Origin: an uncultured Pseudomonadota bacterium
Lineage (GTDB): Bacteria; Pseudomonadota; Gammaproteobacteria; Burkholderiales; Thiobacillaceae
Length of the DNA stretch: 64,000 nt
Reading direction: 5' to 3'
NCBI GenBank assembly: GCA_903835655.1
Contig: CAILNT010000027.1
Location: 1 to 64,000 of the forward strand
Shown here: in pieces, positions 1,571 to 47,946 of the stretch
Numbering within the stretch: position 1 is the first letter of the stretch
How the letters are laid out: each line of letters opens with the position of its first letter
Position numbers and translations under genes: made by a program
Notes under the pieces: model-generated
What the model was told of the DNA's origin: nothing
Databases searched by the model: none
What the model saw: the letters and a program-made list of their open reading frames with translations, nothing else

Positions 1571-4500
1571 TCAATTGAACTTGGCCGCGCGCTGCAGGAG
1601 CTTGGCCGCGTCCGGCTCGTTCGGGTTCCAGGGTGTGCCCGGGTGTATGCAACTGGCGGTGCATTTCTCCGCCGCCTTGACGATGTCCTTGTACGAGCCG
1701 CCTTGAGGATGGATCACCACGGTCTTCTTCTGCTCGTTGTACGCGAAAACCTTGGGATTGATCTTCATGCATTCGTCGCAGGCGGTGCATTCCGGGGTAT
1801 CTACCCACACCGGCTCATAGCCACCCTCCGCCCGAATCGCGACCGGTGCCACCGCGGCTGCCGCATCGATGGGAACGCCCGCACCGAACGACGCCAGGCT
1901 GGCGCTGAGCTTCTGCAGGATTTCCGTGCGCGCACGGGAAGCGATCGCCTCCTCGTCCACCGCAGGTTGGCCCAAGCCTGCCATGCCTTTTAACTGGCGC
2001 CAGAAACTCTGGCGTTCTTCGGTGGAACGAACCAGGTCGGCCGACACCAATACCCGCATCAGCTGGTTTTTCTTGTCCACCGCCCAGATGTAGGGGAAAA
2101 GGCCCTCGCGCTCGTCCTGGGCCAGTTCCAGGAGTTCCACCAGGGGCAGCATGGTGTCGTTCCAGGTGTCCTTCGGTGCCTTGCGGAAATGCTTGGCAAA
2201 GCGGCCCTCGGTCAATGCGAAATCCGCGAACGTGACGGGCAGGGTCATCTTCTGCGTCGCTCCCTCCTCGTCCGCATAGCTCAAAGTGTACTCGGGCCAA
2301 GCACTCTCCATGGCCGGGTTGCCCTCCAGGCTCAGGCATTCGTCGAAAGTCACGCCCTGGTCGGGGTCGTACTTCACCAGCGGATAGGCGCGGGACTCCA
2401 CCGCCAGTTTCGATTGTTCGACGGAACGATCGTCACCGACGCCGTGTTCCACCGGGCAGCAGGTGTAGATGTTGAACAGGGCCGGGCGGCGGCTGTTGAG
2501 GCCGTCGATATAGCCCTCGATCAGATGGGTCGGGTTGGCGATGCTGGACTGGAGTACGTAGGCGCTGCGATGCGCCATGCCGATCAGGCTCATCTCCTTG
2601 CGAATCTCCTGCTTGCCCTTCATGGCGCTGCCATAGGGGGCCATGTCCGCCACCTGGCCGACGAAGGTGGCCGTGGAAGCCTGACCGCCGGTGTTCGAAT
2701 AGACCTGGGTGTCCACTACCATGATCTTCACCGGCTTACCCGTCATGAGTGCGCGCGACAGGTTCTGGAAGCCGATGTCATACATGGCGCCGTCGCCGCC
2801 CACCGCGACCACGGGCGGGCACAGATGCCATTCCTCGTCGCTGAAGTCATGCCAGGAGAGATGGGTGAACATGGACTCGTGTTGCGCCGGGTTGTAACCC
2901 TGGTCGAGTTCCAGTTCGGCCTGGCGCACCGCCTTGAAGCCTTCCGCCATCTTCGCCATATGGCCCTCGAACAGCCCCAGGGCCACCGAAGGAGCATCCT
3001 GGAAGAGGTGATTGGTCCAGGGGAAGGGATAGGGGTTGAACGGATAGGTCGACGCCCACACCGAGGTGCAACCGGTGGAGTTGACGATGCCCATCTCCGC
3101 GCGGCCGCGATGCGTCGGGCCTTCCACGTAACGCCAGCGCAGATCCCGCAATTTTTCCAGGAGCTGGCTCACCCAGGTCAACCACTGCGGATCGATCGGC
3201 CTGCCTTCGCCCGCCGCCAGGAGGCTGCCCGACAGGTTGGACAGGGTCAAATCCTGGCCCTTGTGCGCCGCCACCGCCAGCATCACGGCGCGAGGGTCGG
3301 TGAGGTCCACGCTTTCCGTGAGCTTCATGCGCAGATGTTTCTCCAGCCCCAGGATCAGGCCATCGAGCTTGTCCACGAACTGTTTGACACGGGGCTGCAT
3401 CAAGGCCGTCACCGTGCTGGTGAACAGATGGATGGCGGTCTTTTCGCCGCAGCCCATGCAAGCGCCATCGCCACAGGCCATGGAATTGTAATTGCGCTTG
3501 TCGAGCAGTAGGGTCTCGAGCGCGCCGATCTTCTCGTCCAGATTGTCGATGCGGATGAATTTCTGCGGCGTGGTGGGCAGATCCAGCCAGAAATTCCAGT
3601 CGCGTCGCAACTCGGCCACACTCGCCTCGCTCTGGGGAATCATCTTCAGTGCGTCGTCGCTACAGACCTCGACACACAAGCGGCAACCCTTGCAGGTATA
3701 GGGATTGATGGTGATCGAGAACAGGCCTCCGGCACCCTGGGCCTTCTTCTCCCGGGTGGTCCAGTAAGGCTTGGTGGTGGCGAACTTGAAGCCGCCCAGG
3801 GACTGGCGCAGAAGCTCGAATTCCGCCTCGAGGTGAGTGCGATCCTCGCCATCGGCGGGCATCTTGGCCAGGTCGTCCGCCAGGGTCGCATCGATGGCAG
3901 CCGCCATCAGGGCACGCACGTCCAGGCCTTCGCGCTCCAGGCTGGAACGCAGCTTCTTCTCCATGGCGCGCGCGGCGCGGCGCAGGAAGCGGGTCGGCCG
4001 GCCGCCGATCTCGATCTTCTGGATGGCGTTGTTGAATATTTCGCCCACTTCGCTGACCAGGCCGGGGATGGCCGAGTCCGGGCAGACCGTGTAGCAATTG
4101 CCGCAGGCGGTGCAGTTTTCCGCGACCCATTCCGGATGTTCGAAACGGATCTGGGTCATGTCGCGGAACACGCCAGTCAGGGCGGGAATCAGGGATAGGC
4201 CGATGAAGGGATCCACCAGGTTGTCCGAACCCTGGCCCTTCGCATAGAAATTGCCGGTTTGCTCCCAGAAACGGTGGATGTCGGCGGCATGGCCGTCGCC
4301 TTCGGGCAGATACCGCAGCATCACCGGCAAGGCGGCTTCCTGGCGCACCTGGCTCAAGCGCGCCCCAATCTGCTTCACTTCAGGCGGAATCTCGACCAAC
4401 TCGGAATAGCCGCGCTTGACCACGCGCAGGTTGTCGTCCACCACGCGCTTGCCCTTGCTGCCGAACTTGTGTTTGAGCTGATTCTCGATGGCCAGGAACA

Positions 4501-6511
4501 GGGATTCCTCGGAAAAGCCCGCTTTCTCCATCACATTGGAAGCATGGAAGAAGGCGCCCTGGAAGGTGTTGCCCTGCATCCGCAGTTGCAGGTCGGGGTT
4601 GGTGGCTTCTTCGCGGGCGATCTTGAAGGCGTCCAGGAAGTAGACGCGGATGCCGTGTTCGACGATGTGTTTTTGCACATGCACCGGGAAACCCGCCCAG
4701 ACCGCCTCGGGGCTCGTCAGGCTGCTCTGGATGATGAACACCCCGCCCTGATCGAGGCCGGCCACCGCATTGGTGTGGAGAAAGACTTGGGGATCGGGCG
4801 ACATCACGATGTCCACGTGGTCGTATTCGCAATTGACGCGAATCGGCTCGGGCGCCGCGGACAGGTAATACGTGGTGGGCTGCCCCTTCTTTTCCGAACC
4901 GTACTTGGGATTGGCCTTGATGTCCCAGCCCAGCAACTCGAACAAGGTCATGGCCAGGTTCTTGCCGGTGGTCACCATGCCCCAGCCGCCCACGGAGTGC
5001 ATGCGCACGGCGATGCCGCCCGGGGGGAGGAGGTTGGGGTTTTCCGAACCGCGCAAGGCGAGGTGCTTGATCTTCGGGTAGGCAGCCAGGAGTTCCTGCA
5101 TCTGGATCTCCTGCTTGGGGCTGGCAGCCTGCTCGCGCACGAACTCCACGCTGAGGTAGAAAAACTTCCGTTTCCCGCCCTCGGGCAGCATGTTCTCCAC
5201 CGCGGCCAGCAGGTCGCGCGGTTGCAGGTCGCGCGAACCCAGGCCGTAGCAGCCGGAATAGAGCCGCGGCAGGTCGCGGGCAGCGTAGCTGGCATAGCCC
5301 TCGTAGGCCGGCTCGCCCATGCCATTTTCCACGCACTTGCTGACCGTGGCGCGCACCTCGCGCATCAGCGGCAGATCTTCGGCCAGCGGCTGATCGGTGC
5401 GTTCCAGCACCGCCACGCCCTTCTTGCCCTTGAGTACCTGGCCCAACAGGGCACCGGGGAAGGGCCGGAACATGGTGAGATTGACCACGCCCACCTTGAT
5501 CTTCCGATGCTCGCGCATCCAGTCGGCCAGTGCCTCGGCCTGCACGCACATGGAACCCTGGCCCAGAATCAGGTAGTCGGCATCCTCGCAGCGATAGGCC
5601 GCCACCCGGCTGTAGCCGCGGCCGGTCAGTTCGGCGTACTCGGCCATGCAACGGTCGGTGATCTCCGGGATGTGATCGAAGTAATAGGGGCGCTGCGCGG
5701 CCACCGACTGCATGTAGGCGTCCTGATTCGCCACCGGGCCCGAAGACACCGGGAGATCCACGTCCCACAGGGCGGGCACGCGGCGCCGCCGGGGGCCGTA
5801 GAGCATCGCCTGAGCGGGCGTGGGTGCGTCGATGAGATCACTCGGCCGCCCCAGGTATTCGGCCACCAGATCCCGTTCTGGCACCAGGACCGGCTCGATC
5901 AGATGGGTGGTCAGGAAGCCATCCATGCCCATGATGGCCGGGGTCAGCGTGAGTTCGGCAACCTTGCGCGCGATCAGGTTCAAGTCGGCGGCTTCCTGCG
6001 CATTCTTGGCCATGACCTGAATGAAGCCGGTGTCGTCGACGCAGTGATAGTCGTCGTGGCCGGCATGCACGTTGAGCGTGGCCTTGGTGATGGCGCGGCA
6101 GCCCATGTTGAGGACGTAGGGCAGGCGTTTGCCCACGGCGCCATAGAGGGATTCGTGCATGAATGCCACGCCTTGCGCCGAACTGAAGTTCACCGCGCGC
6201 AAGCCGGTCATGGACATGCCCGCGGTCACGCCGGCGGCGGCATGCTCGGATTCGGGCTCGACGAAGATCAGGGGGTTGCCAGAGGTGTTGACATATCCCG
6301 CGGACACCGCCTCGGCCCAGTATTCGCCCATCTGGGTGGAAGGCGTGATGGGGTAGGCGCCGGCGGCGTCCGAAGCCTCGCGCTCGACCAGGATCACGGC
6401 GGTGTTGCCGTCGATGGCATCACGCACGCCGGGGTATTTCACCGGCCTGGCCTGCGCCTTGTGAGAGGAGCCGGAATCCAGCAGATGTTTGTCTAAGAGC
6501 TTCTTGAACAT
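1571..6511 (-). CDS. Fused pyruvate/2-oxoacid:ferredoxin (flavodoxin) oxidoreductase with extra C-terminal ferredoxin-like domain
   Basis: Alpha domain (AYPITPSTQMGEYWAE), gamma-like domain (GGWGMVTTGKNLA), 4Fe-4S motifs CTACGNCYTVCP and CKGCRLCVEVC, ThDP beta domain (GDGACMGCGEKT; GGDGAMYDIGFQNLSRAL), C-terminal CTACDEC...CTASCIHPGTPW. Start moved to ATG at 6511, preceded by GGGGGAG. Confidence 0.9.
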   Translation of the reverse strand: MFKKLLDKHLLDSGSSHKAQARPVKYPGVRDAIDGNTAVILVEREASDAAGAYPITPSTQMGEYWAEAVSAGYVNTSGNPLIFVEPESEHAAAGVTAGMSMTGLRAVNFSSAQGVAFMHESLYGAVGKRLPYVLNMGCRAITKATLNVHAGHDDYHCVDDTGFIQVMAKNAQEAADLNLIARKVAELTLTPAIMGMDGFLTTHLIEPVLVPERDLVAEYLGRPSDLIDAPTPAQAMLYGPRRRRVPALWDVDLPVSSGPVANQDAYMQSVAAQRPYYFDHIPEITDRCMAEYAELTGRGYSRVAAYRCEDADYLILGQGSMCVQAEALADWMREHRKIKVGVVNLTMFRPFPGALLGQVLKGKKGVAVLERTDQPLAEDLPLMREVRATVSKCVENGMGEPAYEGYASYAARDLPRLYSGCYGLGSRDLQPRDLLAAVENMLPEGGKRKFFYLSVEFVREQAASPKQEIQMQELLAAYPKIKHLALRGSENPNLLPPGGIAVRMHSVGGWGMVTTGKNLAMTLFELLGWDIKANPKYGSEKKGQPTTYYLSAAPEPIRVNCEYDHVDIVMSPDPQVFLHTNAVAGLDQGGVFIIQSSLTSPEAVWAGFPVHVQKHIVEHGIRVYFLDAFKIAREEATNPDLQLRMQGNTFQGAFFHASNVMEKAGFSEESLFLAIENQLKHKFGSKGKRVVDDNLRVVKRGYSELVEIPPEVKQIGARLSQVRQEAALPVMLRYLPEGDGHAADIHRFWEQTGNFYAKGQGSDNLVDPFIGLSLIPALTGVFRDMTQIRFEHPEWVAENCTACGNCYTVCPDSAIPGLVSEVGEIFNNAIQKIEIGGRPTRFLRRAARAMEKKLRSSLEREGLDVRALMAAAIDATLADDLAKMPADGEDRTHLEAEFELLRQSLGGFKFATTKPYWTTREKKAQGAGGLFSITINPYTCKGCRLCVEVCSDDALKMIPQSEASVAELRRDWNFWLDLPTTPQKFIRIDNLDEKIGALETLLLDKRNYNSMACGDGACMGCGEKTAIHLFTSTVTALMQPRVKQFVDKLDGLILGLEKHLRMKLTESVDLTDPRAVMLAVAAHKGQDLTLSNLSGSLLAAGEGRPIDPQWLTWVSQLLEKLRDLRWRYVEGPTHRGRAEMGIVNSTGCTSVWASTYPFNPYPFPWTNHLFQDAPSVALGLFEGHMAKMAEGFKAVRQAELELDQGYNPAQHESMFTHLSWHDFSDEEWHLCPPVVAVGGDGAMYDIGFQNLSRALMTGKPVKIMVVDTQVYSNTGGQASTATFVGQVADMAPYGSAMKGKQEIRKEMSLIGMAHRSAYVLQSSIANPTHLIEGYIDGLNSRRPALFNIYTCCPVEHGVGDDRSVEQSKLAVESRAYPLVKYDPDQGVTFDECLSLEGNPAMESAWPEYTLSYADEEGATQKMTLPVTFADFALTEGRFAKHFRKAPKDTWNDTMLPLVELLELAQDEREGLFPYIWAVDKKNQLMRVLVSADLVRSTEERQSFWRQLKGMAGLGQPAVDEEAIASRARTEILQKLSASLASFGAGVPIDAAAAVAPVAIRAEGGYEPVWVDTPECTACDECMKINPKVFAYNEQKKTVVIHPQGGSYKDIVKAAEKCTASCIHPGTPWNPNEPDAAKLLQRAAKFN

Positions 6512-6606
6512 GGTCACTCCCCCGCTAAGGGATGATGAATAGAGAATTCGGGATGGCTGGACGCCCGGATGGGCGACTCGAACAGGCAACGAGCATCAGA
6601 GCACAT

Positions 6607-38023: not shown

Positions 38024-39124
38024 TCAACCACCGGCGACTGTATGCACCACAGATTTTGCCAGCGCCAGCATGCCGGTCTCGTCCGCCGAGGTCAGGGTCA
38101 GGGTTTGCGCTCGCGCGGCTTGCGTGAAGTTGCGATCGATCGAGCGCAGATAGGCGGGGTCGTAGTGGCGGATCAGGAGATCGCTGACCAGTTCGTCCCA
38201 GTTCCCCGCCGCGGCCTGGGCCTTCCAGGCGTCCACCTGGGCACGGCCCTGGATGCCGGCCAGGCAGTCGAGGCGCTGGCCGAGCGCGTCGGCATCGGCG
38301 AGAAAGTGGGTGTATTCGTCCTTCAGGAGTGCGACGCGCACCGGGATGTCGGCGTTCAAGTTGAGGCAGGGGCTGGCGCGCATGCGTGTGAGCAGGATTT
38401 CGGGCGTGTGCAGGTTGCCGATCTTCTTGCTCTCGGACTCCACGAAAACGGGTCGTGTCGGGTCGAAGCGGCGCAGTTCGTTCCAGAGACTGCTCTCGAA
38501 GGCCTTCTGCGTGGGCTGGGGGCGGTCCGGGTAGGCTCCCAGCACCGAGCCCATGTGCGCGGCCAGTTCCTCCAGGTCGAGCACCTGGGCGCCGACCTGG
38601 CTCAGGGCCCGCAGCAAGCGGCTCTTGCCCACGCCGGTGGGGCCGCAGACCACGCGAAAATCGAACGAGTCGGGCAGATGCGCCAAGGCCTCGATGACCT
38701 GTTTGCGATAGGCCTTGTAGCCACCTTCCAGTTGCACGGCTTGCCAGCCAACGGCGCGCAAGACGGTGGTCATGGCACCGCTGCGGTTGCCACCACGCCA
38801 GCAATAGATCAGGGGGCGGTACTCCCTGGGCTTGTCGGCGAAATGGCCTTCCAGATGCCGTGCCAGGTTGCGCGAGACCAGGGCCGCACCGGCGCGTCGG
38901 GCGGAAAAGGCGGAAACCTGCTTGTGCAGGGTGCCGACGTGGGCGCGTTCCGCATCGTCCAATACCGGCAGGTTGAGGGCGCCGGGCACCCGGTCCTCCG
39001 CGAATTCCGCGGGCGAGCGGGTGTCGATGATCGCGTCGCAGAGAAATAGCTCCGCACAGTCGACCACGCCTTCCTTACGGTAGACGGGGGGCGTCCGGCT
39101 CGCAGGCTCGAGGGAACGGTTCAT
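38024..39124 (-). CDS. mnmH: tRNA 2-selenouridine synthase MnmH/SelU
   Basis: Rhodanese domain [24 protein letters not shown] and [13 protein letters not shown]-loop [16 protein letters not shown]. Confidence 0.9.
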
Positions 39125-39564
39125 TTGTCGCGCAGGAGACGGCCCTTCTCGCGCTGCCACTCCCTATCCTTCTCGGTCGCGCGCTTGTCATGCAGCTTCT
39201 TGCCTTTGGCCAGGCCGATTTCCAGCTTGATGCGGCCCTTGGTGTAATGCAGGTTGATCGGCGCCAGGGTGTAACCGGCGACCTTGACTTTGCCTATCAG
39301 CTTCCTGATCTCCTGCGCATGCAGCAGCAGCTTGCGCGAGCGGGTTGGATCCGGGTGGATGTGGGTGGAGGCGGTCGGCAGGGCGCTGATGTGGCAGCCG
39401 ATCAGCCAGACCTCTTCCTGCTTCACCACGACATAGGCTTCCTTCAGCTGCACCCGTCCGGCCCGGATCGCCTTCACCTCCCAGCCTTGCAGCATGACCC
39501 CCGCCTCATAGCGTTCTTCGATGAAGTATTCGTGGAAAACTGCTCTGTTGTCGATGATGCTCAT
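39121..39564 (-). CDS. smpB: SsrA-binding protein SmpB
   Basis: [41 protein letters not shown]-terminal [26 protein letters not shown]. Confidence 0.96.
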
Positions 39565-41675: not shown

Positions 41676-41838
41676 ACCCGGAGTCCTCCACCGCCCGCCG
41701 AGGGCCAATTACCCTGCCCCGACGTGCTTTCCGAGGTTCCCGCGAGGGGCCGTCTTGTGCTCAAATCCGGCCCTTTCCTCGCACCCGCATGGGGCGCCGC
41801 TAGCCGGGATGCCGGTCTGCCGCGATAAAGTTATCGAC

Positions 41839-43500
41839 ATGAAAATTACCGTCAGCGCATTGATCGTCAGGTATCTGGAGCGCTTGGGCATCGAGTTCAT
41901 CTTCGGCATGCCTGGCGCCCATGTATTGCCGATCTACGACCAGTTGCACGGCTCCGGGGTCAAGAGCGTGCTGGTCAAGCACGAGCAGGGCGCGGCTTTC
42001 ATGGCGGGGGGGTATGCCAGGGTTTCCCACAGGATCGGGGCCTGTATCGCCACGGCAGGTCCGGGGGCCACCAATCTGATCACCGGTATCGCCAACGCCT
42101 ACGCGGAACGGCTGCCGGTGCTGGTGATCACCGGAGAGACCTCGACATATATTTTCGGCAAGGGTGGCTTGCAGGAGAGCTCGGGCGAGGGCGGCGCGAT
42201 CGATCAGGGCGAGTTGTTCCGCGGCATCACCCGTTATCACAAGCTGATCGAGCGCGGCGATTACCTGGGCCAGGTGCTCAACCAGGCCACGCGGGCCCTG
42301 TTCGCGCGCGATCCCGGCCCCGTGCTCTTGTCCATACCCTACAACGTACAGAAAGAAATGGTCGACGCCGACCTGCTCGACCACCTCCACATCCCGCGCC
42401 ACGGCGAGCGCGTCCCTTGCGGTCCCGTGGCGGAGCTGGCGCGGTTGATCGAGACGGCTGAAGCGCCCGTCATCGTCGCCGGTTATGGCGCCATCCAGGC
42501 GGGCGCGCGCGGCGTGGTCTCGCGTCTCTCCGAAGCGTTAGGCATTCCGGTGGCTTCCAGCCTCAAGGCCAAGGGCGTGGTCAGCGAAGGCTCGCACCTC
42601 TCGCTCGGCTGCCTGGGCGTAACCTCGAATGGCGAAGCCTATCGCTATATCGTCGAACAGGCCGATCTGGTGATCTTCCTCGGCGCCGGCTTCAACGAAC
42701 GCACCAGCTACCTCTGGGACAGCAAGCTGTTGGCCGGGAAAAAGGTTGCGCAGGTGGATCGCGATGCCGCCCAGTTGAACAAGGTATTCAAGGCGGACGT
42801 GGCGATTCAGGGCGATATCCGCGAAGTGCTCGGCGAGTTGCTGGCACGGCTGGAATGCGATGTGGCCAGCGTGACGACGCTTGCGCGCCTGGAACGCCTG
42901 GCCGGGCATCGCCAGGCCGCCCCGCAGCCGCCGGCATGCGCGCAGTTTCGCCTGATGGAAGCATTTTTTGCCGGCCTGGCCGCGCGTTTCCCGGAAGACG
43001 CGATGATCTTCGACGACAACATCGTGTTCGCGCAGCGCTACTTCGATGTCTCGCACGCCAATCATTATTTCCCGAACACCGGCATCTCCTCCCTGGGGCA
43101 TGCGATTCCCGCGGCGATCGGCGCGCGCTTCCATACCCGCGACCTGGCCATCCCGACCTTCGCCATCCTGGGAGACGGTGGCTTCCAGATGTGCTGCATG
43201 GAAATCATGACGGCGGTGAACTACCGGATACCGCTCAACGTGGTGGTCATCAACAACGCCAGCATGAGCCTGATCCGCAAGAACCAGTTTCAGCTCTACG
43301 GCGAACGCTACATCGACTGCGACTTCGTCAACCCGGATTTTCACCTGCTCGCCCAGTCCTTCGGCATCCGACACCGCAGGATCGAATGCGAGGCCGATCT
43401 CGATGCGCTCTTCTCCCAGGACGATCTGCTGGGATCGATCAACCTCATCGAAATCCTGCTGGATAAAGATGCCTTCCCTACCTACCTGTCGGTGCGCTGA
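41839..43500 (+). CDS. Acetolactate synthase-like ThDP-dependent enzyme
   Basis: FIFGMPGAHVLPIYD, VKHEQGAAFMAGGYAR (catalytic Glu), TAGPGATNLITGIANAYAERLPVLVITGE, ThDP motif GDGGFQMCCMEIMTAVNYRIPLNVVVINN. Confidence 0.88.
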   Translation: MKITVSALIVRYLERLGIEFIFGMPGAHVLPIYDQLHGSGVKSVLVKHEQGAAFMAGGYARVSHRIGACIATAGPGATNLITGIANAYAERLPVLVITGETSTYIFGKGGLQESSGEGGAIDQGELFRGITRYHKLIERGDYLGQVLNQATRALFARDPGPVLLSIPYNVQKEMVDADLLDHLHIPRHGERVPCGPVAELARLIETAEAPVIVAGYGAIQAGARGVVSRLSEALGIPVASSLKAKGVVSEGSHLSLGCLGVTSNGEAYRYIVEQADLVIFLGAGFNERTSYLWDSKLLAGKKVAQVDRDAAQLNKVFKADVAIQGDIREVLGELLARLECDVASVTTLARLERLAGHRQAAPQPPACAQFRLMEAFFAGLAARFPEDAMIFDDNIVFAQRYFDVSHANHYFPNTGISSLGHAIPAAIGARFHTRDLAIPTFAILGDGGFQMCCMEIMTAVNYRIPLNVVVINNASMSLIRKNQFQLYGERYIDCDFVNPDFHLLAQSFGIRHRRIECEADLDALFSQDDLLGSINLIEILLDKDAFPTYLSVR

Positions 43501-45229
43501 TCTGGCGGCACAGATCGCCGCGCAGCGCGTCGCCATCGCACGCTTCGAGGCGGCCCTGTGGCAGAACGGGTTCAATGCGGCCCTGCTGGAAGCGTATCAA
43601 TCCGCCTGGCGCCGGCTGGAAGCCCTGATCGCAGCCGCTGGAGAGGATAACCGCCACCGCTTCGTCATCGTCATCCCGGTCGCGGACAGTCCGCTGCATC
43701 TGCAAGACTGCCTGGCTAGCCTGCTCGATCTGTGCCGCGCCTATGCCTACGGTGGCCAGGCCGAGGGCCGCTGGGCCAAGGTGAGCGTGCTCCTGGCCGA
43801 CGATTCCAGCGTACCCGTGAACATCGCAAAGAACCGGGCGATCGCCACCAGCTTCGAGCGCCAGGGGCTGGCCATCCAATATTTCGGCCTGGACGAGCAG
43901 ATCGCGCTGCTGGACCGCTTGGGCGCGCTGGATCTCGGCGCCATCGTGGGTTGCCATCCACGCACGGCATTCGCCCACAAGGGCCAGGCGATGCTGCGCA
44001 ACATCGCCTACCTGAAGCTGGCCGAGATGTTTCGCGGCAGCACGGAACCGCGGCTCTACTACACGCTGGACGCCGATCAGGAATTCAAGGTGAAGGTCGC
44101 TACGGAATCGGGTGGCCAGGAGGTGCTCGCCGTGAATTTTCTCTATCGCCTCGACGAGATATTCAGCGCCAGCGATGCCCAGGTGCTCACCGGCAAGGTG
44201 GTGGGCGATCCGCCCGTGTCGCCTGCCGTGATGGCCGGGAATTTCCTGGAAGACGTGATCGGTTTCCTTCGGGAAATGGCGGCTGCCGATCCGATGGGCG
44301 ACTACCGACAGCCCGCCGTGTCGGCCTCGGGGGATGCGGCGTATCACGACATGGCCGACCTCTTCGGCTTCAAACCGGCCGCGGATGCCCAGCGTTATCG
44401 CTGCCCCCTCGATGGAGTGCCCGGTAATGCGGCGTGCTTCGCGGCCTTTTCACAGCGTCTGCACAGTTTCTTTCACGGCGAGCATCCCACCCGCATCACC
44501 TGGTTCGAGTACCAGGATGCGCCAGCTGCCGCGCCGCTCGGAACACACCCGGCGCGCACCGTCTACACCGGCAACTATGTGTTTCGCCCCGAGGCGCTGC
44601 GCTGGTTCATACCCTATGCACCGCTGCGCCTGCGCATGTCTGGGCCGACCATGGGGCGCTTGCTCCAGGCCGAGATGGGGCAGCACTTCGTGTCCGCCAA
44701 CCTGCCGATGCTGCACAAGCGCGCCCTGGCCGGCAGCGGGCAATCCGAGTTCCGCCCCGGCGTCGTGGCCGAACGCAGCCGCATCGACCTGTGTGGGGAA
44801 TTTGAGCGCCAGTTCCATGGTGACGTCATGCTGTTTTCCATGCAGCGCCTGATCGCATTGGGCTATCCGGAACGGCTTCCGGAGGTGGCCGAGGTCGCGG
44901 AAATACTCGACGAGGTGCGCGCCGAGATGCGGGAAAAATACCGGATCAAGCAGGCAGCCATCCTGGATCGGCTCGCCCTGCTGGAAACGCTGTTGGCCGA
45001 TCCGGCCCGGTGGTGGAACCAGGATGCAGCATCGCTGGCGGCCAGAACCCATTTCCAGGATTTCGCCGCCAACCTGGAGCGCAACTTCGGTGTCGATTCG
45101 CCCTGTTACGCCCGCATCGACGCGCCCGGAAACTGGGCCTCCTGGCGCGCCCGGCAACTGGCCGCGATCCAAAGTCTGCCCGCGGACCGGCAAGACTGGG
45201 CAGCGGCGCTGCAAACCTTGGGCGCATGA
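43469..45229 (+). CDS. Uncharacterised protein with glycosyltransferase (GT-A/GT2-like) features
   Basis: RFVIVIPVADSPLHLQDCLASLLDLC, VSVLLADDSS, and YYTLDADQEFKVK resembling GT2 nucleotide-binding and DxD motifs; ATG 43469 overlaps the upstream gene. Confidence 0.6.
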   Translation: MPSLPTCRCADLAAQIAAQRVAIARFEAALWQNGFNAALLEAYQSAWRRLEALIAAAGEDNRHRFVIVIPVADSPLHLQDCLASLLDLCRAYAYGGQAEGRWAKVSVLLADDSSVPVNIAKNRAIATSFERQGLAIQYFGLDEQIALLDRLGALDLGAIVGCHPRTAFAHKGQAMLRNIAYLKLAEMFRGSTEPRLYYTLDADQEFKVKVATESGGQEVLAVNFLYRLDEIFSASDAQVLTGKVVGDPPVSPAVMAGNFLEDVIGFLREMAAADPMGDYRQPAVSASGDAAYHDMADLFGFKPAADAQRYRCPLDGVPGNAACFAAFSQRLHSFFHGEHPTRITWFEYQDAPAAAPLGTHPARTVYTGNYVFRPEALRWFIPYAPLRLRMSGPTMGRLLQAEMGQHFVSANLPMLHKRALAGSGQSEFRPGVVAERSRIDLCGEFERQFHGDVMLFSMQRLIALGYPERLPEVAEVAEILDEVRAEMREKYRIKQAAILDRLALLETLLADPARWWNQDAASLAARTHFQDFAANLERNFGVDSPCYARIDAPGNWASWRARQLAAIQSLPADRQDWAAALQTLGA

Positions 45230-46512
45230 TGACGTCCATCCTCCGTTCCTGGCTGCACGCCCGCCGCCACCCCGTCCGTTATGCCGAACTCGAAAGCCTG
45301 CTGCGCAACCAGTCCCTGAGTCGGGAAGACCTGTCGAGCAAGCAGCGGCGCGCTCTGGCGGAAATTGTCGCCTTTGCCGCGGCCAACACCGCGTACTACG
45401 CGGAAAAATTCGTCCAGGCCGGGTCGAGTTTCACCAGCCTACCCATCCTGACCAAGGAAGACGTGGCTGCCCGCCGCGACGATCTTCTGGTGCGCACAGC
45501 CGACCGCGCCCAGGTGAAGCTGGGCCACACGGGGGGCTCCACCGGTAAGCCACTGGCTTTCTGGTACGACGACACCAAGCACGAATCGATGCGCGCCGGC
45601 ATGATGCGCGGCTTCATGATGTCCGGCTGGCGTCCCGGCCAGAAGGTGCTGTATTTCTGGGGTGCGCGCCACGACACCGTCAGGGGCGGGGTGTTCGGCG
45701 GCGCGCCGCTGGCGGACTTCATCGCCGCCGAGAAGACCATCGCCGCCGTCGAGTACAGCGAGGCGAAGCTGAACGAATGGGCACGGACGATCCAGGCCTG
45801 GCGACCCACCCTGCTCTACGGCTATGCCTCGGCGCTGGACGAGCTGGCACGCCACGTGATCGCCGGGCCGATGGCCATGCCCACCAGCCTGATCGGCGTC
45901 TATTCCACCGCGGAAATGCTGGGCGCCGATCAGCGCCTGCGGATGCAACAAGCCTTCGGCTGCAAGGTGTACAACCAGTACGGATGCCGCGAAGTGCCGA
46001 ATATCGCCTGGGAATGCCGCTTGGGAAACCTGCACGTCTTCACCGACCTGGTGCATCTCGAATCCGTCGGCTGCGAGGACGAGGAGCGACTGCTCGTCAC
46101 CTCGCTCTCCAACCGCCTGATGCCCTTCATCCGCTACGATTTGGGCGACTCCGGGCGATTGCTCGAGGGCGAATGCGATTGCGGTTCGCCGTTTCCACGC
46201 ATGGAAATGGGTCTGTGCCGGCAGAACGACCTGATTCGCACCCGTGCTGGCAAGCGCCTGCATCCGGGCTATTTCAATCGACTCCTGGACGGACTGACGC
46301 AGATTCGGCAGTACCAATGGGTGCAACTGGATCTGGACCGGCTCGCCCTGAATCTCGTCGCCTCGTCCCTGAGCGCGGCAACCCTGGATACACTGCGTGA
46401 GCGCCTGGCGCGCGAGACGGCACTGCGACTGGAAGTGCACTATCTGCATGAGATTCCGCGCACGGCCGCCGGCAAGCACCGCTTCGTCATCGGCCTGGCG
46501 ACCTCCGGCTGA
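45226..46512 (+). CDS. PaaK/CapK-like adenylate-forming enzyme (phenylacetate-CoA ligase family)
   Basis: LGHTGGSTGKPLAFWYDD, VYNQYGCREVPNIAWEC, IRYDLGDSGRL; start overlaps the stop of the upstream gene (ATGATG). Confidence 0.82.
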   Translation: MMTSILRSWLHARRHPVRYAELESLLRNQSLSREDLSSKQRRALAEIVAFAAANTAYYAEKFVQAGSSFTSLPILTKEDVAARRDDLLVRTADRAQVKLGHTGGSTGKPLAFWYDDTKHESMRAGMMRGFMMSGWRPGQKVLYFWGARHDTVRGGVFGGAPLADFIAAEKTIAAVEYSEAKLNEWARTIQAWRPTLLYGYASALDELARHVIAGPMAMPTSLIGVYSTAEMLGADQRLRMQQAFGCKVYNQYGCREVPNIAWECRLGNLHVFTDLVHLESVGCEDEERLLVTSLSNRLMPFIRYDLGDSGRLLEGECDCGSPFPRMEMGLCRQNDLIRTRAGKRLHPGYFNRLLDGLTQIRQYQWVQLDLDRLALNLVASSLSAATLDTLRERLARETALRLEVHYLHEIPRTAAGKHRFVIGLATSG

Positions 46513-46539: not shown

Positions 46540-46618
46540 GTAGGGCGGAAAAGCGCCGCGCCTTCCGCCGTGTGTGCCACGCATTCGGCGGATAACGCCT
46601 GCGGCTCATCCGCCCTAC
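46540..46618. repeat. 79-bp palindromic intergenic element with GTAGGGCGGA/TCCGCCCTAC ends
   Basis: Perfect 10-bp terminal inverted repeats and internal secondary inverted repeats (CTTCCGCCG / CGGCGGAT). Confidence 0.75.
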
Positions 46619-46723: not shown

Positions 46724-47371
46724 ATGTCCTGCAAACCCGCACGCCTTCGCTTTCCCGACGACGAGCAACGCCAGCCCTGGCTGGCCTTGCTGCTCGAAAT
46801 CCAGTTCATCTGCAATCAAGGCGTGGAACACGCGATCGCCCTGGATGGGCGCCGCCTGGCCTGCGCGCGCGGCTGTGCCAGTTGCTGTAGCAGCCATGCG
46901 GACATCCCGGTCTATCCGCTGGAACTCATGGGCATCTCCTGGTATCTCCTGGAGAAGCTGGAAGGGGACGCCGGCGCCGAGGTGCGCGAACGGGTGCGGC
47001 GGCAGATGGCGCGGCATCGCGATCTTGGCGCCTGCCCTTTTCTGGTCGATGCAGCCTGCGCCATCCACCCGCTGCGCCCCATGGCCTGCCGCCAGTTCAA
47101 CGTCTTCACCACGGTGTGTCTGCCGGGCGAGGACGCTTATCATAGCCGCCGTGGCGACGTGCTCACCCCGGACGCGAAGCGCAAGGATACGGCCCTGAGT
47201 GAGATGCTGCGCCACCACGGTGTGAAGGACGGCTCGGAGCGCCGCCGCCTGGTCGCGAGCGGCGAGGTGCACCGCCTGGCGCAAAGCTTGCGGGAAATGC
47301 GCTGGGAAGCCCTCGCGGCCAGGATGGGGGCCGCACAGGTACAGAACGATATTTCTCAGGAAGCGACATGA
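46724..47371 (+). CDS. YkgJ family cysteine cluster protein
   Basis: CARGCASCCSS and later CPFL, C(AIHPLRPMA)CRQFNV cysteines. Confidence 0.82.
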   Translation: MSCKPARLRFPDDEQRQPWLALLLEIQFICNQGVEHAIALDGRRLACARGCASCCSSHADIPVYPLELMGISWYLLEKLEGDAGAEVRERVRRQMARHRDLGACPFLVDAACAIHPLRPMACRQFNVFTTVCLPGEDAYHSRRGDVLTPDAKRKDTALSEMLRHHGVKDGSERRRLVASGEVHRLAQSLREMRWEALAARMGAAQVQNDISQEAT

Positions 47372-47946
47372 ATCAGGATCGAGTGAACCACGACGAAGTG
47401 ATTGCCACCATGCGCTTGTGGCTGGAGAAGGCGGTGATCGGGCTCAATCTGTGCCCCTTTGCCAAGGGGGTCTACGTGAAGAACCAGGTGCGCTTCGTGG
47501 TCAGCGAAGCCCGCCACCTCGATGGTTTCCTGGAGGATCTGGACCGTGAACTGGACTTGCTGGCGGCTGCCGACCCGGCGCAGATCGACACTACCTTGCT
47601 GATCCACCCGACGCTGATGCCGGATTTCCTGGAATTCAATGATTTCACGGTCTTGGCCGAGGCTGCGGTGGAGGAACATGGTCTGGAGGGCATACTCCAG
47701 GTGGCCAGTTTTCACCCCGCCTTCCAGTTTGCCGACACCGAGCCCGAGGACATCGGCAATTACACCAACCGCGCGCCCTATCCCACATTGCACCTGATTC
47801 GGGAAGAAAGCCTCTCGCGCGCCGTGGCGGCCTATCCCGACGCCGAGGCGATCTACGGCCGCAACATCGAAACCCTGGAAAAGCTGGGGATCGCCGGCTG
47901 GCGCGCACTGGGCTTCTCGGCGCGGCCGGGTGAGACGCCGGAATGA
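47368..47946 (+). CDS. DUF1415 family protein
   Basis: TMRLWLEKAVIGLNLCPFAKGVYVKNQVRFVVS; PAFQFADTEPEDIGNYTNRAPYPTLHLIREESL. Confidence 0.85.
   Translation: MNQDRVNHDEVIATMRLWLEKAVIGLNLCPFAKGVYVKNQVRFVVSEARHLDGFLEDLDRELDLLAAADPAQIDTTLLIHPTLMPDFLEFNDFTVLAEAAVEEHGLEGILQVASFHPAFQFADTEPEDIGNYTNRAPYPTLHLIREESLSRAVAAYPDAEAIYGRNIETLEKLGIAGWRALGFSARPGETPE

Follow-up and report, generated by a model that had tools for sequence, protein, structure and literature searches.

Sulfur oxidation through the Sox and reverse Dsr systems plays a key part in the sulfur cycle and in chemosynthetic symbioses. To our knowledge, little has been learned about its accessory factors (carriers, globule components, protective metabolites). 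The enzyme classes relevant to the locus described here have known chemistry: ThDP enzymes act on 2-oxoacids, GT-A enzymes move a sugar from a nucleotide sugar, and ANL enzymes activate carboxylates. Solved structures of ThDP enzymes include those of BbmA (PDB 8x3x) and CsmA (8x3z). The locus joins a ThDP enzyme to a GT-A-like protein and a PaaK-like ligase. The glycosyltransferase (GT) family, the ThDP subfamily and their combination constitute a real, well-conserved module, the parts of which come from known superfamilies. A literature search found no description of either family or of the combination, nor any work linking the module to sulfur globules, rDsr or BbmA.

The locus and its gene layout

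The window, which is the whole stretch of 64,000 nucleotides that was analysed, derives from an uncultured bacterium of the Thiobacillaceae. The trio sits on contig C27 of a 3.67 Mb draft genome, and its composition matches that of the window (GC 0.642 for the trio, 0.639 for the window). The original prediction of three consecutive, overlapping plus-strand genes is correct in its coordinates, and the features are as follows.

41839 to 43500, plus strand: gene 1, ThDP-dependent enzyme of the acetolactate-synthase superfamily, distinct subfamily, 553 aa (Pfam TPP_enzyme_N/M/C, conserved motifs); ATG at 41839, stop at 43498-43500
43469 to 45229, plus strand: gene 2, predicted soluble GT-A-fold glycosyltransferase-like protein, 586 aa, D201xD203 motif (AlphaFold/Foldseek); ATG at 43469, TGA at 45227-45229
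45226 to 46512, plus strand: gene 3, PaaK-like adenylate-forming ligase, 428 aa (PaaK-type matches in PDB and NCBIfam, motifs); ATG at 45226, ending at 46510-46512, ATGA overlap with gene 2
46540 to 46618, no strand: inverted repeat, dispersed and REP/MITE-like, outside the system (half-site counts in the genome)

Both overlaps recur in other loci, that of -32 nt between the ThDP and GT genes in 61 of 112 and that of -4 nt between the GT and PaaK genes in 33 of 69, and they suggest translational coupling. Conservation of the ThDP C-terminus accounts for part of the ThDP/GT overlap, which leaves the precise start of the GT uncertain; distant GT homologues align only from about residue 26. Gene 1 has alternative in-frame starts upstream, at 41755 and 41809; its homologues nevertheless align from MKITVS. 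None of the three proteins has a transmembrane segment, and matches to sigma-70 promoters and terminators were found near chance level.

The trio had also been described as ending at a palindromic element. An inverted repeat is indeed present just downstream (46540-46618, GTAGGGCGGA..., with 15-nt arms that are 87% complementary), but it is an unrelated dispersed repeat: the genome contains 22 exact half-sites, many of them arranged as inverted pairs 60-80 nt apart. A terminator or a part of the system is thereby ruled out.

Several other features were observed around the trio. A gene for a CxxCxxCC (YkgJ-type) protein, followed by a DUF1415 gene, lies just downstream (46724-47946), and roughly a dozen other loci encode a different CxxCxxCC protein in the interval from aprA to the trio. 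Elsewhere in the window, a 1672-aa ORF (1571-6589) resembles pyruvate:ferredoxin oxidoreductase with extra ferredoxin parts and is located beside minus-strand RnfB/RnfC-like genes (identified by eye). An ORF at 38024-39160, also read by eye, resembles tRNA 2-selenouridine synthase and adjoins a copper-type P-type ATPase.

The three proteins

The first protein belongs, as proposed, to the acetolactate-synthase-like ThDP group: a Pfam search recovers three domains, TPP_enzyme_N, TPP_enzyme_M and TPP_enzyme_C. Its best equivalog score is to IlvB (NCBIfam TIGR00118), at 337.3 bits against a cut-off of 538.35 that is not reached. The catalytic Glu49, Q112-E113 and G445-D446-G447...NN are conserved in 123 ThDP homologues, with single exceptions at N472 and N473. 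At the position of the AHAS pocket tryptophan (the W of RQWQQ) gene 1 encodes Asn482, invariant in a 29-sequence alignment, and its loop FGKGGLQESSGEGGAID corresponds to GQDAFQEVD in IlvB. No ACT-domain gene (IlvN) adjoins gene 1. Such a gene instead adjoins a second ThDP paralogue of the genome, on contig C41, which is followed by ilvN and ilvC (ilvC read by eye); the IlvB encoded there is 26% identical to the gene 1 product. The sub-cut-off score, the separate ilvB-ilvN-ilvC cluster, the low identity and Asn482 together rule out an ordinary IlvB, in agreement with the original prediction. The nearest solved structure is that of BbmA (8x3x, E 2.4e-81). The protein can be mistaken for acetolactate synthase in annotation. 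The genome encodes a third ThDP enzyme on contig C81 (L003), with flanks that read like glycan or natural-product genes.

The second protein has no match in Pfam or NCBIfam and no significant match to any PDB chain in a sequence search. Lacking a family model, it is likely to be called hypothetical by annotation pipelines. An AlphaFold model built from the window protein and 64 homologues (pLDDT 91, pTM 0.91) yielded 21 Foldseek matches in the PDB at E<=1e-3, all of them glycosyltransferases or glycosyltransferase-domain proteins. The best are Chlorella virus hyaluronan synthase, GlfT2, PcManGT, MtdL and mannosylglycerate synthase. TM-scores are low, about 0.2-0.3 by query length, probably owing to extra helical parts of the protein; membership of the GT-A fold is supported, a specific activity is not. 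Residues D112, D201, D203, H293 and D294 are invariant in 123 GT homologues. The original guess of a GT-A-like protein, made from sequence, is thus supported by the model, and gene 2 is predicted to encode a GT-A-fold glycosyltransferase.

Gene 3 had been assigned to a PaaK/CapK-like group, and PaaK-type matches in the PDB and NCBIfam bear out the PaaK-like part below the specific cut-offs. The Pfam AMP-binding match is below its cut-off, as are all matches to the NCBIfam PaaK/adenylating group; against TIGR02155 (PaaK) the score is 49.2 bits, short of the cut-off of 646.3. The motifs TGGSTGKP and QYGCRE (QYGxxE), R303-x4-D308 and the C-terminal Lys417 are invariant in 73 homologues.

Conservation and flexible components of the module

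Co-occurrence of the three families was among the checks proposed with the original prediction, and many lineages do keep all three genes together. Of 149 relatives, 87 have the GT, 87 have the ThDP enzyme and 86 have both. Counting unlinked cases, the two thus occur together in 86 of the 88 relatives that have either gene; in one of the others (G063) the ThDP gene is broken, and in the second (G088) it is present with the GT undetected. The genes are neighbours in 109 of 119 GT loci, a set in which some loci represent one genome present in two collections. In genus g6, the ThDP gene is usually located away from the GT, at a frmAB-CBS-ThDP locus and often beside folE (names assigned by eye), while the GT and a Sulfotransfer_3-like gene occur at another site, and both ThDP enzyme and GT are retained. 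The ligase is less widespread: 30 of the 149 relatives have it. Within the window's genus it is present in 22 of 23 genomes, in at least four of which (G002, G004, G007 and G013) it is unlinked. The genes flanking the trio differ between lineages. This co-retention of even unlinked genes amid changing flanks argues that the trio is maintained as a functional set. Its coupled core consists of the ThDP enzyme and the GT, inherited and kept together even when unlinked.

In several Thiobacillus-type genomes the trio is followed by a TRAP transporter (DctP, with DctQ- and DctM-like proteins identified by eye; for example, L086:10189-11787), and one also follows the ThDP gene in some genomes that have the GT elsewhere.

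Beyond what was originally noticed, the ligase is replaced by other proteins in some lineages. The third position of the 119 GT loci is occupied by PaaK in 67, by a Sulfotransfer_3-like gene, convergent to the GT, in 15, and by a 177-aa P-loop protein in 15. Mapped onto a FastTree tree of 104 GTs, the third genes that carry a label require two changes. The GT of one PaaK-type locus (L117) is sister of the Sulfotransfer_3 clade, and PaaK occurs on either side of the midpoint root, so that PaaK may be the ancestral third gene. The Sulfotransfer_3 scores are weak: one protein reaches E 1.9e-4, under the gathering score, and a second one E 0.02. The 177-aa protein has no Pfam match and no sulfotransferase fold match; its model is of low confidence and resembles G proteins and other P-loop NTPases, and "P-loop" is therefore as far as its assignment is supported. 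In Candidatus Venteria (L129:6220-8683), 16 nt separate the end of an APS kinase gene from the start of the GT downstream, and the ThDP gene is absent from the flank examined. This arrangement fits a supply of PAPS for a putative sulfation, and some lineages may perhaps have a sulfation branch.

Association with Dsr/Sox sulfur oxidation

Among named records, the relatives of the window are Hydrogenophilales, Thiobacillus-type and other Betaproteobacteria. Sulfur oxidizers account for most of the named loci: Thiobacillus, Sulfuriferula, Sulfuricella, Sulfurisoma, Sulfurimicrobium, Thiolapillus, Sedimenticola, Candidatus Thiodiazotropha, and symbionts of Escarpia and Lamellibrachia. One carrier in culture is Sulfurisoma sediminicola BSN1, the locus of which (L108) is of the PaaK type. 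A class-level sample of 323 genomes, each at least 90% complete, contains dsrA in 104 (103 above the cut-off and one cut by a contig end), soxB in 135 and the GT in 22 (21 full length and one decayed, with a weak match in G465 left out). All 22 are among the 94 genomes that carry both dsrA and soxB, and the GT is found in none of the other 229 (hypergeometric 2e-13, a value inflated by shared ancestry). The ThDP-GT core is therefore confined, in this sample, to genomes carrying dsrA and soxB, a near-exclusive link that the original prediction did not include.

Because the genomes are related, such p-values overstate the evidence; the GT genomes come from roughly 15 families, and a crude bound at the level of families still falls below 1e-7. 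In the order but outside the window's own family, all six GT genomes have dsrA (in G103 it is in pieces), out of 10 dsrA genomes in total. Among genomes reached from the GT loci of named records, 29 of 30 have dsrA, the exception (L125) being a fragmented MAG. No GT was found in a small sample of 60 genomes from outside the class, drawn across the phylum. The gene aprA is near the trio in 13 of 120 loci. Since dsrA alone cannot separate reductive from oxidative Dsr, it is the presence of soxB that makes oxidation the likely direction.

Chemolithoautotrophy was considered as a driver of this pattern and rejected. RuBisCO is present in 21 of the 22 GT genomes and in 167 of the 323 overall; the combination of dsr and sox explains more, remaining associated with the GT inside RuBisCO-bearing genomes (p 3e-7, again inflated by shared ancestry), and within dsr and sox genomes RuBisCO adds nothing (p 0.68). 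The GT is missing from 72 of the 94 dsrA and soxB genomes, so the module is not a core part of sulfur oxidation, and we infer its role in sulfur metabolism solely from distribution.

A possible counterpart of the ThDP-GT pair near Alvin_2602 of Allochromatium vinosum was dropped; the neighbouring Alvin_2599-2601 are presumably the known rhd-tusA-dsrE2 genes, and not this GT. In that genome, an "acetolactate synthase" (Alvin_2602) adjoins genes for a rhodanese, a SirA-family protein and a conserved hypothetical protein (Alvin_2599-2601; PMC11267869).

Proposed pathway and alternative models

We tentatively interpret the trio, with slightly less than even confidence, as a soluble cytoplasmic biosynthetic module of Sox/Dsr sulfur-oxidizing Proteobacteria, the product of which would be glycosylated and next acyl-activated or, in some lineages, perhaps sulfated. 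The ThDP enzyme would decarboxylate a 2-oxoacid and join or release the activated aldehyde, giving a hydroxy or keto small molecule. The GT-A enzyme would then transfer a sugar from a nucleotide sugar to that molecule, or to an acceptor bearing it. PaaK would use ATP to activate a carboxylate as an acyl-AMP, probably followed by a thioester or ester, and in some lineages the sulfotransferase-like third protein may transfer sulfate from PAPS. In one possible order, which employs all three enzymes, the ThDP enzyme would form a hydroxy- or keto-acid, after which the GT would add a sugar to the hydroxyl of this acid and the ligase would activate the carboxylate; mannosylglycerate synthase, one of the fold matches, is known to glycosylate small hydroxy acids. 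This order, with its substrates and product, is inferred from the enzyme families. As to function, we guess at a glycoside, probably soluble or of the envelope, that is required when reduced sulfur is oxidized or stored. It is possible, if somewhat doubtful, that Sox/Dsr sulfur oxidizers have in common a dedicated pathway, so far undescribed, in which the ThDP subfamily and the GT-A family are both new. Its glycosylated product would help to oxidize, store or traffic reduced sulfur, and its last step (acyl activation or sulfation) would be exchangeable.

The original prediction instead proposed that the trio might form an unusual acyl or acyloin group and attach it to a glycan or another envelope acceptor. 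Decoration of an envelope or extracellular glycan, with the sulfur link reflecting a shared lifestyle (for example, attachment to mineral sulfur), agrees with the presence of polymerising GTs, hyaluronan synthase and GlfT2, among the top Foldseek matches, and GT-A, PaaK-like and sulfotransferase proteins are known from glycan loci. It is nonetheless unlikely, as conserved polysaccharide, flippase and export genes are absent around 120 loci, the trio proteins are soluble, and the trio also occurs in intracellular animal symbionts (Lamellibrachia, Escarpia, Thiodiazotropha). By analogy to bacillithiol or mycothiol assembly, the product might be a low-molecular-weight carrier, a glycosylated thiol or sulfane-sulfur compound that traffics sulfur between Sox and Dsr. 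A GT that opens a small-molecule route, with an activating enzyme after it, resembles low-molecular-weight thiol pathways in its logic, and a carrier would suit the strict dsrA and soxB distribution. The operon, however, includes no cysteine ligase or deacetylase, its ligase is swapped for P-loop proteins, unlike in a thiol pathway, and the module is missing from most dsrA and soxB genomes, all of which makes this model improbable.

An auxiliary acetolactate synthase, serving branched-chain amino-acid or acetoin metabolism beside incidental neighbours, would account for the IlvB equivalog score and for the fold and catalytic Glu that gene 1 has in common with that enzyme. Given the ilvBN-ilvC genes elsewhere and the distance of gene 1 from that IlvB, Asn482 in place of the RQWQQ tryptophan, and the fact that 86 of 88 genomes retain it along with the GT, we consider it very improbable indeed. 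For the soluble biosynthetic module that we prefer, restriction to these sulfur oxidizers means that a compact, concrete gene set is available for knockout, and it offers a testable connection, so far unnoticed, of sulfur oxidation with a biosynthetic pathway of its own.

Comparison with known systems

Like IlvB, the AHAS large subunit, the gene 1 product has three ThDP-enzyme domains, the catalytic Glu and the GDG...NN ThDP motif, but it has no adjacent IlvN, it has a longer LQESSGEGG loop, and Asn replaces the AHAS Trp. BbmA, its closest solved relative, has the FGKG-LQES stretch in common with it and is only a distant relative. The gene 2 product shares its predicted fold and its DDS and DxD motifs with GT-A enzymes such as mannosylglycerate synthase, GlfT2 and hyaluronan synthase; it differs from them in matching no PDB chain or Pfam family by sequence and in having additional N-terminal and C-terminal helical parts. 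Gene 3 has the adenylation motifs and C-terminal Lys of PaaK and PaaK-like ligases (4r1l, 9s3l, AjiA1). Unlike the phenylacetate-CoA ligase PaaK, it scores far under the PaaK cut-off, and it adjoins or is co-retained with a GT, outside any catabolic paa cluster.
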